From assembly GCA_020027215.1 (NCBI GenBank), contig JAHRAO010000033.1:1-45774 (forward strand): a stretch of 45,774 nucleotides of DNA, read 5' to 3'. A model generated the notes under the pieces. It had not been told where the DNA came from, did not search any database, and saw only the letters and a list, made by a program, of their open reading frames with translations. The stretch is from Gammaproteobacteria bacterium. GTDB lineage: Bacteria; Pseudomonadota; Gammaproteobacteria; JABABF01; JAHRAO01. Shown piece by piece: positions 26,903-45,774 of this stretch (position 1 is the stretch's first letter; each line of letters begins with the position of its first letter). Made by a program: the position numbers and the translations under genes.

Positions 26903-27354
26903 TGAAAATTTTAGCCACCTTACGCCGCACTTTGGAACGCCCATCCACGCTTCCGACACCCGCTGAACGTGAACACGCCTTACAACTTGCTCTTGCCTTA
27001 GTTATGTTGGAAGTGAGCTATGCTGATTTTGATATTGCGCCAGAAGAGCTGGCGACAATTGCGACTGTATTGCGGCGAGAATTCAATTTGACCGAACAAG
27101 AGTGCGCAAACCTCATGGAGCTGGCTATACAAGATCACCACACCAAAACCTCTTTGCACGATACGTTGCGCTTACTCAATAACACCTTGTGTGAACCCGA
27201 TAAATTGCGTTTGATGAAATCACTCTGGCGCGTTGCCCGTGCTGATCAACGAATCGATAAGTATGAAGAATATCATCTGCGAAAAATTGCTGGGTTACTT
27301 TATATTTCCCATGCCGATTTTATTCGCGCTAAACTAGAGACTGCGGGTCATTAA
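26902..27354 (+). CDS. TerB-like helical protein
   Basis: This 150-residue, probably cytoplasmic all-helical protein resembles the TerB/tellurite-resistance family. It has two similar acidic segments, YADFDIAPEELATI (about residues 38-51) and RADQRIDKYEEYHLRKIAGLL (about 113-133), the two halves typical of TerB-type folds that bind metal ions. No other ter genes are present, so tellurite resistance should not be assumed. It starts at ATG 26902 overlapping the suhB stop, and its last 21 nt overlap the end of asnB on the other strand. Confidence 0.75.
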   Translation: MKILATLRRTLERPSTLPTPAEREHALQLALALVMLEVSYADFDIAPEELATIATVLRREFNLTEQECANLMELAIQDHHTKTSLHDTLRLLNNTLCEPDKLRLMKSLWRVARADQRIDKYEEYHLRKIAGLLYISHADFIRAKLETAGH

Positions 27355-29070
27355 AAAGTGTAGCCACGATTTGTGGTCAGCACGGCAGAGCCCTAATTCG
27401 CTCGCCCATTGCAATATGGGAATGTTAAAACCAGTTTTGCGCCGCTTGTGAACTGTGGCGGGTAAATCGAGATTGAGAGTGCGAAATATCTGTCTTTTCT
27501 CCAGTTGCGGCAATGGATGTAAAAGCGGGAGCACCTGGCGCAAGAAAAATACATCCACAAAAGGAACTCTAATTTCCACTGAATGTGCCATTCCTGCCCA
27601 ATCACTGTCGCGGAGCAATTGATTGCGCATATAGTAGGACATTTCCAGCGCCATAACCTTTTTCCACGGCGTTCCTATTTTGTTGACTCGCTGCGTGAGG
27701 TGCGAAAAGTGTTGCAAGGTTTCCCACCCTTCGGCAATAATATCCGGTTCTAATACATCGGGTAATTCCCACGGCATATACAGTCCGCGCAGAATGTAAT
27801 AAGTTTGTGCCATGTCTCCCGCATAAGTAAATAATCCAGCATATTTAGGCGCAAAATGCCGACAGAGTGCGGCGAGCGTTTTGCCCACGAGTGCAATTGG
27901 GCGCAACGAAAGGGTGCGATTGATGAAAGGGATACGTTGAAAAGAAGGATACCCGCCAAATAATTCATCGCCGCCTAAACCCGATATGCACACTTTAATC
28001 CGCTGGGCAGCACAAACCTGACTAACAAAATAAGTATTCGCCCCATCAATGCTCGGCTGATCCATTGCGGTAAGAAAATGTTCCAGCGAATCGGCAAAGT
28101 GTTCTTTGTCAATGTGTTGGGCATCCCATTGGCATCTATAGTGGCGTGCCACCGCTTGTGCAATGGGGACTTCATCGTGTTGGGTGTTGCGAAATTCGGA
28201 AAAACCTAAAGTGAAAGTATGTATATTGCGCCGCTCGGCAGCCGATGCGAGAAGAACCGATGAATCTAGTCCCGCAGAGAGAAAAAGCCCGACGGGCACA
28301 TCGGCTACTAAGTGATAACGCATTGTTTCACGAATCAATTCGGTAAGGGACTGATCATGGGGTGGATCTATGTTGCGAATGTGTTCGACGAAATTGGAGT
28401 GTACGTACTGCTTCACTTGACCCTTGGACAGAGTGAGGGTCTCGCCGGCTTTAAGTAGGTAGACGCCACGATAGAGCGTGTAGGGTTCGGGAACGCTCCC
28501 CCAGAGTAGTAGACCCACTTGTCCGGCAGGTGAGGCGGCAGTCGGGAAGTGTGCCGATTGCCGCAATGCTTTCACAGTGCTCGCAAAGCGGAGTGTTTTT
28601 CCGTTATCCCAGTAATAAAGGGGCTTGATACCGAAAGGGTCGCGCCCCATAAATACCGAATCATTGCGCTGGTCGTAAATGGCAAAGGTATACATCCCGC
28701 GTAATTTGTGCACCATTGCTGTGCCGTAATGGGCGTAAAGGGCGAGGAGCACTTCAGTGTCCGAGTGTGTGCGAAAAGAGTATTGATGCTCGGCAATACA
28801 GAGGGTGCGTAATTCTTGATAATTATAAATTTCGCCATTGAAAGTGATTGTGTAATGACCATCTGCACTATGCATTGGCTGGTTGGCGGCAGTACTCAGG
28901 TCTATAATGCTCAATCGGCGGTGACCAAAGCCCACTTTTCCGTTTGGTGAGATCCAGGCCCCAGCACTGTCGGGACCCCGTGTCGTCATCGCATCGCGCA
29001 CTTTAATCAGTTCATCGTTCTCCACTGGAGGAGCGTCCCGATAAGCAATGATGCCGTTAATGCCGCACAT
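27334..29070 (-). CDS. asnB: Asparagine synthase (glutamine-hydrolysing), AsnB type
   Basis: The enzyme makes asparagine from aspartate, ATP and glutamine. The 578 residues comprise an N-terminal Ntn glutaminase domain, starting MCGING with nucleophile C2 and with TRGPDSAG, FNGEIYNY and SDTEVLL. The C-terminal ATP-pyrophosphatase domain has the P-loop SAGLDSS (usually SGGxDSS) and ISGLGGDELFGGYP. The G-to-A change is in the second P-loop position, and I infer it remains functional. Some related enzymes act in surface polysaccharide clusters, but here it is the last gene behind recJ (3 nt gap), which fits an amino acid role. Its end overlaps the TerB-like gene. Confidence 0.9.
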   Translation of the reverse strand: MCGINGIIAYRDAPPVENDELIKVRDAMTTRGPDSAGAWISPNGKVGFGHRRLSIIDLSTAANQPMHSADGHYTITFNGEIYNYQELRTLCIAEHQYSFRTHSDTEVLLALYAHYGTAMVHKLRGMYTFAIYDQRNDSVFMGRDPFGIKPLYYWDNGKTLRFASTVKALRQSAHFPTAASPAGQVGLLLWGSVPEPYTLYRGVYLLKAGETLTLSKGQVKQYVHSNFVEHIRNIDPPHDQSLTELIRETMRYHLVADVPVGLFLSAGLDSSVLLASAAERRNIHTFTLGFSEFRNTQHDEVPIAQAVARHYRCQWDAQHIDKEHFADSLEHFLTAMDQPSIDGANTYFVSQVCAAQRIKVCISGLGGDELFGGYPSFQRIPFINRTLSLRPIALVGKTLAALCRHFAPKYAGLFTYAGDMAQTYYILRGLYMPWELPDVLEPDIIAEGWETLQHFSHLTQRVNKIGTPWKKVMALEMSYYMRNQLLRDSDWAGMAHSVEIRVPFVDVFFLRQVLPLLHPLPQLEKRQIFRTLNLDLPATVHKRRKTGFNIPILQWASELGLCRADHKSWLHFLMTRSL

Positions 29071-36718: not shown

Positions 36719-37431
36719 TATTTTTTCGCCTTTGGATCTTGGCTGTCCGCCGCAGTGCTTTTTTCGTTTGCCGTTTCATCGGCACTGGCACTGCTATCGC
36801 TTTTTTCGTTTGCCGTTTCATCGGCGCTGGCAGTGCTGTCGCTTTTTTCGTTTGCTGTTTCATCGGCACTGGCGGTGCTGTCGCTTTTTTCGTTTGCCGT
36901 TTCATCGGCACTGGCAGTGCTGTCGCTTTTTTCGTTTGCCGTTTCATCGGCGCTGGCACTGCTATCGCTTTTTTCGTTTGCCGTTTCATCGGCACTGGCG
37001 CTGCTATCGCTTTTTTCGTTTGCTGTTTCATCGGCGCTGGTGCTGCTATCGCTTTTTTCGTTTGCCGTTTCATCGGCACTGGTAGCATCTGTTTTTTGCG
37101 TTTCCTCTCCCAGCGGATTTTTCTTGGTGTTGCGGCGGGCACTTTTCTTTGCTAACATTTTCTCCCGCCGCTGTGCTTGTTCTTCGCTGGAGAGCTTGTT
37201 TTGGGTGACAAGAAATGCGACCCGCTTGCTCATTTGTGCGCCTTGGTTGACCCAATGATCAATGCGATCGGTTTTAATCCGCACCCGCTCTTCTTTTCCG
37301 CGCGCATGAGGGTTGAAGAACCCGACTTGTTCAATAAAGCGCCCATCGTTGGGGGCACGACTATCGGCAACAATGAGATGGTAAAAATAGTGTTTTTTTG
37401 TGCGCGTTCTTGCTAAGCGGATTTTAACCAT
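36718..37431 (-). CDS. rpsP: 30S ribosomal protein S16 with long acidic repeat tail
   Basis: S16 is an early 30S assembly protein. Residues 1-82 are a normal S16 ([36 protein letters not shown]). The E. coli protein ends near there. This one continues to 237 residues: a basic linker (about 83-106, [13 protein letters not shown]), then a tail of eight tandem 14-residue units of the type [14 protein letters not shown] (119-225), then [12 protein letters not shown]. Each unit has four acidic residues and one lysine, so the tail is strongly acidic and probably disordered. The frame is open throughout. The gene starts the rpsP-rimM-trmD-rplS-xerD-dsbC-hom-thrC-recJ-asnB run. Confidence 0.96.
36757..37077 (-). 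repeat. Tandem 42-bp repeat array inside rpsP (about 7.6 copies)
   Basis: Seven full 42-bp units and one partial unit repeat head to tail. The invariant core is TTTTTTCGTTTG with GTTTCATCGGC nearby on the plus strand. Copies differ mainly at synonymous or S/T codons. Because 42 is a multiple of 3, the coding frame is preserved, and long spurious frames open on the other strand too. Confidence 0.97.
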
Positions 37432-42889: not shown

Positions 42890-43804
42890 ATGCAGTGGTT
42901 TGATTGGCTATCCGTCGTTTTGTTATCCATACTGTGGGGCACGTCTTTTTTCTTTGTGGAATGGGCAATCGAGTCTATGGACCCATGGACTTTGGTTTTT
43001 TTACGCTGTGCCATTGCTGCCTTATTAATGGCGATAGTGGTGCGTAAACAGCATCCCATCCATTTTATTGTTAAGCGCTGGCGTCCATACGCGGTGGTCG
43101 GTTTTTTGGGTTCGGCACTTCCTTTTCTCTGTTTTGCTTGGGGACAAAAATATATTGATAGCGGTATGGCAAGTATGCTGAATGCGCTCACCCCTGTGTT
43201 TGTTGTGCTCATGGCAGTGATAACCGGTAAAGAAAAATTTAATATTTATCGCTTCGCTGGGGCATGTGTTGCTTTTGTTGGGGTGTTTATTTTGATTGCC
43301 CCTAAAGTAATAGGGGAATTGGCAGGTATGCTGGCAGCAATTTTTGCCGCCCTGTGTTACGCTATTGCAACAATTTATGCTTGGCAGCGGATCAATAGAT
43401 TACCGCCTGCTGAAAATGTCTGTGGGAGCCTATTTTATGCTGCTCTGTTTGTCGCTCCATTTGCATTGTGGCAACAACCATGGCTGGTATCCATTGAAAC
43501 TAAAGCAATAATTGCGGTCTTGTGTTTGGCAGTTGCCAATACTTTTTTAGCGTATTTGTTGTATTACTTTATTCTTAAACACGCTGGGGGCTTTTATGCG
43601 GTCTTAGCTGTATTGCTGATGCCGATTGTAGCCGTTTTGATGGGCGTATTCTTGCTCGGTGAGCGTTTATATAGCGGCTTTTTTATCGGTGGGGCGTTGG
43701 TTATTACGGGCGTTATTTTTGCCGATGCGCAATTGCGCCAGTGGATAATCACCCACACTATTCGTCTTCCGCCTGTGTCGCCACAACGCAAGAATGAGCG
43801 GTAG
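42890..43804 (+). CDS. EamA-family (DMT) inner-membrane transporter
   Basis: A 304-residue membrane protein with about ten hydrophobic helices arranged as two EamA repeats, the mark of the drug/metabolite transporter superfamily. The first repeat has LLSILWGTSFFFVEWAI and the second begins near ALCYAIATIYAWQ. The end, LGERLYSGFFIGGALVITGVI, is typical. Substrate cannot be predicted. GAGG lies about 10 nt before the start. Its last 138 nt overlap the 3' end of the convergent surface-protein gene, including the soluble C-terminal tail. Confidence 0.88.
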   Translation: MQWFDWLSVVLLSILWGTSFFFVEWAIESMDPWTLVFLRCAIAALLMAIVVRKQHPIHFIVKRWRPYAVVGFLGSALPFLCFAWGQKYIDSGMASMLNALTPVFVVLMAVITGKEKFNIYRFAGACVAFVGVFILIAPKVIGELAGMLAAIFAALCYAIATIYAWQRINRLPPAENVCGSLFYAALFVAPFALWQQPWLVSIETKAIIAVLCLAVANTFLAYLLYYFILKHAGGFYAVLAVLLMPIVAVLMGVFLLGERLYSGFFIGGALVITGVIFADAQLRQWIITHTIRLPPVSPQRKNER

Positions 43805-45127
43805 GAATAGCCATGCCGGTAACCCTTTCGGGGTGATGGCGACTGAACATCCGCCGCCGCCGCCACTTGCCGCTACAGGTGAATTCACTATATCAATAGA
43901 GACTTGGACGGGAATGGAATTGGCAGTGCCGTCATTGATCACGAAGACAAAGCTATCGCGTCCAGTACTATTCGCTGCTATATATTCTATGGTCGCAGTG
44001 GCGGTGATAGCCGAGGATCCTCTGACTAACATTCCCGTAGTGGGGCTGGTGATATCCCCATGCTGCAACACACCAGTGAGTGGTGGTTCTTGTATGTTGT
44101 AGCTAAGTTGATCATTGAGGTTAGCATCGCTTCCCGTTAAGGTGATTTGCACCCTCCCCCCCGACTGTACGCTGACCGTGTTAATGAGTGCAACGTTGGG
44201 AAGGACATTGATATTGACCATTTGTTCAATACCGATATTGACGCTGGCGGTCGATATAGAGAAAGCATCTGCCACCTGAAAGACAAATGAATCCGTGCCA
44301 CGGTAATTGGCGTTGGCTGTATAACGCACAATGGGCATATTATTGGTCAAGGTGATGACTCCCGATGGGTTGACATTGGAAAATGAGCCATTTGTTGGCT
44401 GGGTGATAATCGTATAAGTGAGGGTGTCATTGCTGGCGTCTGTCGCGCGCAAGGTGATAGCGATAGTCGAATTGACCGATATTTGATGCGATGTCGGCTG
44501 GGCAGTGGGTGCACCGTTATAACGGATTGAGCGGCTCTGACAATTTGCTGTGGCATCTCCTTGATTGCTATTTGATTGATTAACTGGCATCACACAAAGC
44601 GACAAGGTGCTCACCCCTTGGCCAGCAGTTTGTAAAGCGTTGGAAGGTTGCCATATTATCTGGTCCCAGCGCACTATTCCCGCATTCAGTGATTTGGGTG
44701 CGTTATGGGTGACCGAGGGTCCAATAATACGCGCTTCAGTATGCTGGGAGGGAACACTGACCTGACCAGAAGCCGTCTGTAGGTTAAACCCTGCATGTGT
44801 GTAGGTCATAGTGTCATCAATGGTTAATTGGAACGCAAAAAAGTTGCGTTCATTTTGCGCACGGGCAGTAAAAAGTTCATCGTTGACTAATCTAATGGCA
44901 CTACCTCCAATCGCTATAAACGTGAGTGTGCTGGCTATCGCTGTTGTGGGGTTGTGGCAACCACTTTGATTACAGCTGGTCGTTGGCATGCTGTTATTGA
45001 GAGGGGGAGTAGGAGGACCAACGCCGCCTGAATTTGTATATCCAACATGAGCGATGCTCAATAGGAATACTGTCGCAAGAAATCTGCGCACAAATCTGGC
45101 GACTAGTGAATTACTCAAACTATTCAT
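43667..45127 (-). CDS. Exported surface protein with CxxxxCH, Ig-like repeats and Gly-rich C-terminal sorting signal
   Basis: From the ATG at 45127 it has 486 residues. A signal peptide (about 1-30) is followed by a domain with CNQSGCHN (C52, C57, H58), a CxxxxCH pattern seen in choice-of-anchor V-type proteins that may bind heme, and a region to about 200. Two Ig-like/cadherin-like repeats follow (about 205-300 and 305-415), each ending like YRGTDSFVFQVADA or GRDSFVFVINDG. Near the end come five Gly and a Cys (about 422-427), one membrane helix (about 437-449) and RHRR, a GlyGly/JDVT-CTERM-like sorting signal. Such signals usually end just after the basic residues; this protein runs on for about 33 residues. 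It likely acts on the cell surface, role unknown. Confidence 0.8.
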   Translation of the reverse strand: MNSLSNSLVARFVRRFLATVFLLSIAHVGYTNSGGVGPPTPPLNNSMPTTSCNQSGCHNPTTAIASTLTFIAIGGSAIRLVNDELFTARAQNERNFFAFQLTIDDTMTYTHAGFNLQTASGQVSVPSQHTEARIIGPSVTHNAPKSLNAGIVRWDQIIWQPSNALQTAGQGVSTLSLCVMPVNQSNSNQGDATANCQSRSIRYNGAPTAQPTSHQISVNSTIAITLRATDASNDTLTYTIITQPTNGSFSNVNPSGVITLTNNMPIVRYTANANYRGTDSFVFQVADAFSISTASVNIGIEQMVNINVLPNVALINTVSVQSGGRVQITLTGSDANLNDQLSYNIQEPPLTGVLQHGDITSPTTGMLVRGSSAITATATIEYIAANSTGRDSFVFVINDGTANSIPVQVSIDIVNSPVAASGGGGGCSVAITPKGLPAWLFLPLILALWRHRRKTNSVGDYPLAQLRIGKNNARNNQRPTDKKAAI

Positions 45128-45262: not shown

Positions 45263-45774
45263 GTGAGATATAAATATTTATTGATTGCGTGGCTTGGGTT
45301 CGCTGCACCCGTTTGGGCAGCAATGGATTCGGATAACGATACGCTGCTTGAGATAACCACCGCCACAGAATTAATCGCTTTGCTCGATGACCTCAATGGC
45401 GATGGCATTGATGACGGACGGTTGGATACTGTAACCCCCACCGGCAGTGCGACCTGTCCCCCTATGGGATGTAGCGGTTATGAATTGGCGAATAACATCA
45501 CCCTCAGCGGAGAATGGACGCCGATAGGGACGAACAGCAATCCATTTGCCAGCGTATTCAATGGCAACGGCTTTGCGATCAGTGGATTATCCATCAATGC
45601 GTCATCCACCGATTATATTGGTTTGTTCGGGGCGGTCAATGGTGGCCAGTTGCGTAATTTAGTGATCGTTCGCCCCGAGGTGATAGGGCGGAGCCATACG
45701 GGCGCTCTGGTGGGTCGTGCGATGAATACCGACATCACACGTATCACCCTCCAAGGCGATGGGAGCGATACGAC
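45263..45774 (+). CDS. GLUG-repeat exported protein, partial (runs off the window)
   Basis: An open frame from GTG 45263 continues to the window end (170 codons plus two bases). The product starts with a signal peptide (MRYKYLLIAWLGF..., cleavage likely after VWA), then acidic Asp-rich segments (MDSDNDTLLEI, DLNGDGIDDG) that may bind calcium. Next comes a GLUG-type repeat: YIGLFGAVNGGQLRNLVI, then VIGRSHTGALVGRA. GLUG proteins are usually large, repetitive and extracellular. No strong ribosome binding site precedes the GTG. It diverges from the other surface protein with a 135-nt gap. Confidence 0.75.
   Translation, partial: MRYKYLLIAWLGFAAPVWAAMDSDNDTLLEITTATELIALLDDLNGDGIDDGRLDTVTPTGSATCPPMGCSGYELANNITLSGEWTPIGTNSNPFASVFNGNGFAISGLSINASSTDYIGLFGAVNGGQLRNLVIVRPEVIGRSHTGALVGRAMNTDITRITLQGDGSDT

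Follow-up and report, generated by a model that had tools for sequence, protein, structure and literature searches.

The window, by which we mean the whole stretch of 45,774 nucleotides that was analysed, is one entire contig of a gammaproteobacterial genome of 1.53 Mb (46 contigs, 97% complete). Close to its end, a gene for a putative surface protein converges on a gene for an EamA-family transporter, and the two overlap; the features of both are collected in Table 1. As the initial annotation had described, the surface protein carries a CxxxxCH motif and, towards its C-terminus, five glycines and a cysteine, a single hydrophobic helix, the basic residues RHRR and 33 polar residues. That annotation had also equated the polar tail with the part of the gene that overlaps the transporter. 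The tail does lie within the overlap, but the 138 bp extend further, being made up of the stop codon, the 33 codons of the tail, those of RHRR and roughly eight more from the helix, and the last residues of the transporter (PPVSPQRKNER) are encoded opposite the sorting signal of the surface protein.

Table 1. Features of the surface protein gene and of the convergent transporter gene, in positions of the window
Feature	Coordinates	Strand	Basis
Surface protein coding sequence	43667..45127	-	486 aa plus TAA; ORF listing and translation
Start codon ATG	45127 (first base)	-	Minus-strand ORF
N-terminal signal peptide region, about residues 1-30	45038..45127	-	By eye: basic start, hydrophobic stretch
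Choice-of-anchor V-like domain, residues 23-195	44543..45061	-	NF041895, 29.0 bits, below cut-off of 42; aligned with 15 relatives
CNQSGCH (C-x4-C-H), residues 52-58	44954..44974	-	Translation; CH invariant in 16/16
His141 of SVTH, candidate second axial ligand	44705..44707	-	Alignment A3, column 183, His in 15/16
Big_9/cadherin-like repeat 1	44234..44518	-	Pfam PF17963, best stretch 204-298
Cadherin-like repeat 2	43889..44179	-	Pfam PF16184, best stretch 317-413
C-terminal sorting signal of Cys type (SGGGGGC, RHRR and the hydrophobic helix between)	43769..43867	-	TIGR03901; leave-one-out model
Sorting-signal Cys, C427	43847..43849	-	One hydrophobic stretch behind it
RHRR, residues 450-453	43769..43780	-
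33-residue polar tail KTNSVGDYPLAQLRIGKNNARNNQRPTDKKAAI	43670..43768	-	Antisense to transporter, codon register aligned
Stop codon TAA	43667..43669	-	Minus-strand ORF
EamA-family transporter, convergent	42890..43804	+	Pfam EamA, 6.3e-46; 138-bp overlap

On the other side of the surface protein gene, a divergent neighbour (45263-45774, plus strand), a protein start cut by the contig end, contains a GYELANNITLSGEWTPIG block. A close match to this block occurs in a large frame on contig C27 (GYELASNIRLTSNWTPIG), and large repetitive frames were also seen on C3, C6 and C25; for its 1.5 Mb, the genome seems to devote much to large surface proteins. Elsewhere in the window, a gene for an asparagine-synthase-like amidotransferase (27334-29070, minus strand; 378 bits, cut-off 267) lies at one edge of a series of ORFs on the minus strand that extends to about position 37431; its product also matches the XrtA/PEP-CTERM amidotransferase model (333 bits, cut-off 817).

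The C-terminal signal had been likened to the JDVT or GlyGly types, and a search of the genome for further such ends had been suggested. Four more were found, all Cys-type, so that this signal occurs in five proteins on five contigs: the surface protein and proteins on C35, C43, C36 and C9. A model built from the other four gave the surface protein 33.0 bits, as compared to at most 6.6 bits for 200 shuffles. Because the same model gave the three GlyGly-type ends compared from the genome, which lack the cysteine (SGGAIYWW, SGGGWMWL and RGGAIGQI), scores of only -0.8, 7.0 and 0.2 bits, sequence comparison supports placing the surface protein's signal in the Cys (JDVT/MYXO) class and not in the GlyGly class. 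When left out in turn, the other four Cys-type ends scored 16.0-25.4 bits, with best shuffles at 3.7-10.3 bits and the best GlyGly-type end at 8.9 bits, and a profile built from all five Cys-type ends matched, at E < 0.1, only those five inputs in the genome. A GGGC codon pattern was also tried as a signal finder and set aside as uninformative, as it occurred in 41 places and in 39 of the reversed control.

Among the existing models, TIGR03901 (MYXO-CTERM) matched residues 423-453 of the surface protein with 20.1 bits, at its cut-off of 20 (23.5 bits in the genome search), while in 14 control genomes it produced no match over the cut-off and sub-cut-off matches in seven. Similar to MYXO-CTERM, the signal combines an invariant cysteine, a helix and an Arg-rich end. 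The JDVT-CTERM model NF033191 did not match the surface protein at E <= 1, nor were the C36 and C9 proteins listed by it, in contrast to the two remaining Cys-type ends, which reached 23.0 and 19.4 bits (cut-off 27).

What sets the surface protein apart is the length of chain behind the signal. From the first basic residue to the chain end we counted 37 residues, versus 7-13 in nine other signals, these nine being a sample of available ends, with four of Cys type and three of GG type from the same genome and two Cys-type ends from other genomes (L072, with JDVT-CTERM at 29.2 bits, over the cut-off of 27, and L087, at 14.8 bits, under it). The surface protein's signal is thus not at the extreme C-terminus, with 33 residues lying behind RHRR. 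A paralogue of the same architecture in this genome (C36:15989) ends with SSSSSGC, a helix and RRGRQHK, and has no tail. The tail, which had been called unusual together with the overlap, is indeed an outlier against the nine signals, but long convergent overlaps that arise by 3' extension have been described before as a class. Palleja et al. (2008, PMC2478687) list 178 convergent overlaps of more than 60 bp in 338 genomes, with 124 classed as misannotations due to 3' extension and 54 as perhaps real. Our case resembles these in exceeding 60 bp and in that one of the two genes is extended at its 3' end compared to its relatives; it differs in that the extension sits on a cleavable sorting signal and may cost the cell nothing.

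Either a lost stop codon or a recent deletion joining the two genes had been offered as the origin of the tail. Stop loss is the likeliest cause, because the paralogue and three other Cys-type proteins, in a comparison of all five Cys-type ends, stop soon after their basic residues; a joining deletion is possible but less probable. The normal stop just past the basic cluster would have been lost through a point change, a one-base indel, a small deletion or an assembly error, and the frame would then have continued, antisense to the convergent transporter, until it met a stop. Starting from 25 long ORFs of the window, taken as genes, in-register antisense runs had a median of 16 codons to the stop, and 26% stayed open for at least 33 codons, so a lost stop would yield such an unremarkable run without selection. 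The tail is polar because a membrane helix read antisense in aligned codon register is polar.

Stops just after the basic cluster were thus seen in the paralogue and three other Cys-type proteins, although no close homologue was found. In the genome collection, in which the taxonomic family of this bacterium is represented by this genome alone, no close relatives of the whole protein were detected; in two genomes of the order, searches at E <= 1e-15 returned only the surface protein itself and its own-genome paralogue, and for the class the queries were the domain model and the transporter. These searches turned up no homologue that carries this tail apart from the transporter. Because a close relative is lacking, the causes of the tail are not separable, and stop loss, one-base indel, small deletion and sequence error all fit it. 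The nearest relative of the transporter, at L041 (the same record as L153), was set aside: its downstream gene is on the same strand and reads as a guanylate kinase, so that both the surface gene and the overlap are missing from this locus.

One of these causes, a sequencing or assembly error with the true stop just past RHRR, is a less likely candidate within the preferred explanation. In another frame, a stop lies six codons from where RHRR begins, so one inserted or lost base would suffice, though a nearby stop in one of the two other frames is common by chance. The predominance of misannotations among long convergent overlaps (124 of the 178; PMC2478687) and the division of the assembly into 46 contigs speak for an error as well, whereas the genes elsewhere on the contig are long and intact.

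Less probable again is a deletion that fused the ends of two once-separate convergent genes and so gave both proteins new ends. Such an event would account for a surface protein whose chain past the basic cluster exceeds that of the nine others by 24-30 residues, and for a transporter with 25 residues past its IFAD motif, compared to 17 in its nearest relative (48%) and 1-22 in 27 homologues (the usable ones among 29 homologue loci). However, the transporter exceeds the longest homologue by just three residues, so that its end is hardly odd and lends weak support to a two-sided fusion. Stop loss alone, starting from a short overlap, fits the same facts (gcvT and holA, another convergent pair in the window, overlap by 4 bp), and the unfused state was seen in no relative found.

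The initial annotation had anticipated a dedicated sorting protease of CAAX or rhomboid-like type, and the genome encodes one of each. MrtJ, the protease of the JDVT system (NF033192), was found with 108.6 bits (cut-off 75), and is the sole match of the genome to PF02517 at E <= 10. PF02517 alone is uninformative, being over its cut-off in 11 of 14 control genomes, and it is the MrtJ model that counts. The MrtX model gave the same protease 41.7 bits, far under its cut-off of 180. Additionally, there is one rhombosortase (TIGR03902; 130 bits, cut-off 84), a model with no match over the cut-off in any of the 14 control genomes. The mrtJ gene is flanked by genes read as DAHP synthase and priA, with no client adjoining. 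In this the genome departs from the JDVT-CTERM/MrtJ system (NF033191/NF033192), in which MrtJ and a single JDVT-CTERM protein form a two-gene neighbourhood (PMC11980579); here five proteins with the signal are spread over five contigs, while the over-cut-off MrtJ and the two partial JDVT-CTERM matches among the other Cys-type ends are points of likeness.

For the route of the protein, the MYXO-CTERM/MrtX system offers the nearest analogy. Its clients are thought to be lipidated at the cysteine, cut by MrtX and exported by type II secretion (PMC11980579). The same source describes that system as specific to myxobacteria, and the protease here is MrtJ and not MrtX. A Cys-type sorting end (GGGGGGGC) was also found on a protein that looks trypsin-like by eye (L168, 677-1669, plus strand, on contig C43 of this genome, G000) and is encoded directly upstream of gspF (484 bits, cut-off 424), and therefore at least the GspF part of type II secretion is present, the pathway that is also presumed for MYXO-CTERM clients (PMC11980579). 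By analogy, we infer lipidation, cleavage and secretion for the surface protein. It would be exported by Sec and held in the inner membrane by its helix; the signal cysteine would be lipidated, after which MrtJ would remove the helix and everything behind it, and type II secretion would carry the lipid-anchored protein to the outer surface.

It is improbable that the rhombosortase, rather than MrtJ, cuts this signal. The genome does hold an over-cut-off rhombosortase, and the surface protein resembles the clients of the GlyGly-CTERM/rhombosortase system (TIGR03501/TIGR03902) in its Gly-rich stretch, with five glycines, its helix and its basic end; moreover, a choice-of-anchor V paralogue in the genome, on C33, bears the GlyGly signal. 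Unlike the surface protein, however, the three GlyGly-type ends compared have no cysteine, and they reach at most 7.0 bits by the model that gives the surface protein 33.0, and at most 8.9 bits over all five leave-one-out Cys-signal models.

The tail would be on the cytoplasmic side of the membrane and would be lost together with the peptide that MrtJ removes, so that it probably has no effect. A C-terminally FLAG-tagged TraA is still cut by MrtX, both in Myxococcus and in E. coli provided with MrtX, although the FLAG tag is small and not comparable to a tail of 33 residues (PMC11980579). The codon score of the tail counts against its being junk: at 0.35 it equals that of real genes (0.27 +/- 0.13 in 320 windows) and is reached by 2.2% of 320 same-register antisense windows (0.06 +/- 0.14), this being one test on 33 codons, to which we attach little weight. 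That the tail was selected, as a cytoplasmic peptide with a role before or after cleavage, is nevertheless very improbable, because for all its codon score and its seven basic versus two acidic residues (counted by eye), which fit the positive-inside rule, it is missing from the paralogue of the same architecture and from eight other signals, and its polarity is explained by the antisense reading of a membrane helix. As a whole, we think it probable, with some reserve, that this is a sorted surface protein processed by MrtJ, whose tail is an overrun past a lost stop and probably has no effect.

The role of the N-terminal domain is a more interesting matter than the tail. The choice-of-anchor V model (NF041895) matched five places in the genome at E <= 0.01. 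Two, the surface protein and C36:15989, have Cys-type ends. The C33 protein passes the model with 72.1 bits and carries a GlyGly-CTERM signal (17.1 bits, cut-off 15.5), and a large protein (C36:74214) passes with 52.8 bits and has a GG-like end by eye. The fifth (L131, 1665-2585, minus strand, on C9 of G000) is a copy of the domain with a Cys-type end, without the N-terminal half or the CXnCH motif, and is probably a truncated or decayed gene. The surface protein itself scores 29.0 bits, below the cut-off of 42, and has C-x4-C-H in place of the commoner C-x2-C-H; it shares with the family the CH motif, the conserved blocks and a conserved second histidine.

To compare these domains, we used an alignment (A3) of 16 sequences, four from this genome and one each from 12 others of the class. 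Fourteen of them are among the 16 over-cut-off matches and two are below-cut-off matches of this genome; the C9 copy and second copies in G177 and G036 (without a locus) were left out. CH is invariant in all 16, in a sample that was drawn by the model of the choice-of-anchor V family and may favour this motif. The first cysteine precedes it by a spacing of two in 11 sequences, four in the four from this genome and five in one. The second histidine is present in 15, with glutamine in the other. Searches against solved structures returned weak matches to cytochrome c6, putidaredoxin and others (best E 0.0075), none covering the domain, and Pfam gave six families for the 16 domains, each matching one (best E 0.0077), again with none covering it. 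A fold prediction of residues 33-204 made with no alignment had a mean pLDDT of 33.7, too low to be of use. The literature searched contained no paper on choice-of-anchor V, and among 15 listed of 20 papers on 'choice-of-anchor' none dealt with this domain by its title.

From its sequence, it is plausible that the choice-of-anchor V N-terminal domain binds heme covalently, and we regard this as a fair hypothesis. The CX4CH motif occurs in a putatively exported protein, and part of a heme-maturation gene set was seen in the genome, with CcmE at 171.7 bits (cut-off 171), the heme lyase CcmF/NrfE at 660 bits (cut-off 569) and a protein of DsbE/CcmG type at 173 bits (cut-off 123). The ccmE-ccmF-ccmG-like genes lie side by side (L169, 4969-7680, minus strand, on C2 of G000). 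CcmC was not found in this 97%-complete genome, as PF01578, which was expected to catch it, matched only CcmF and one protein without a CcmC match. CcmE speaks for the heme reading and the missing CcmC match against it, and the two balance. The C-x4-C-H spacing is no bar to heme, because NCBIfam includes a model named for CxxxxCH/CxxCH c-type cytochromes and CX4CH is counted as a heme site in PMC5566968. Whole-protein scans of four proteins found choice-of-anchor V, cytochrome c domains and PKD repeats together in L071, L072 and L073; the fourth, L087, is choice-of-anchor U and not V, and has no cytochrome c domain. L072 (10-2094, minus strand, in genome G284) combines choice-of-anchor V with PKD repeats, two stretches of cytochrome c and an over-cut-off JDVT-CTERM signal, and judged by these matches is likely a surface cytochrome with a myxosortase-type anchor.

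A more far-reaching reading, which we put forward tentatively, is that the domain binds a single heme in the c-type manner and has so far gone unrecognised as such, its two histidine ligands coming from CXnCH and from the ELTH-type histidine, and that this bacterium with its small genome exposes such heme proteins at the surface through two sorting proteases working in parallel, MrtJ for Cys-type and rhombosortase for GlyGly-type ends, with the same domain on either anchor; the tail, which is as long as the signal, would then show that the protease needs no signal at the chain end. This genome is a natural test, having the two sorting proteases together with a domain family that bears either kind of anchor. 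The tail itself is probably an accident, yet a useful one, because continued cleavage of the protein would mean that sorting is independent of a signal at the very end of the chain, and programs that seek such signals at C-termini only would be affected. Should the domain bear heme, its family, at present named after its anchors alone, would turn out to consist of surface redox proteins.
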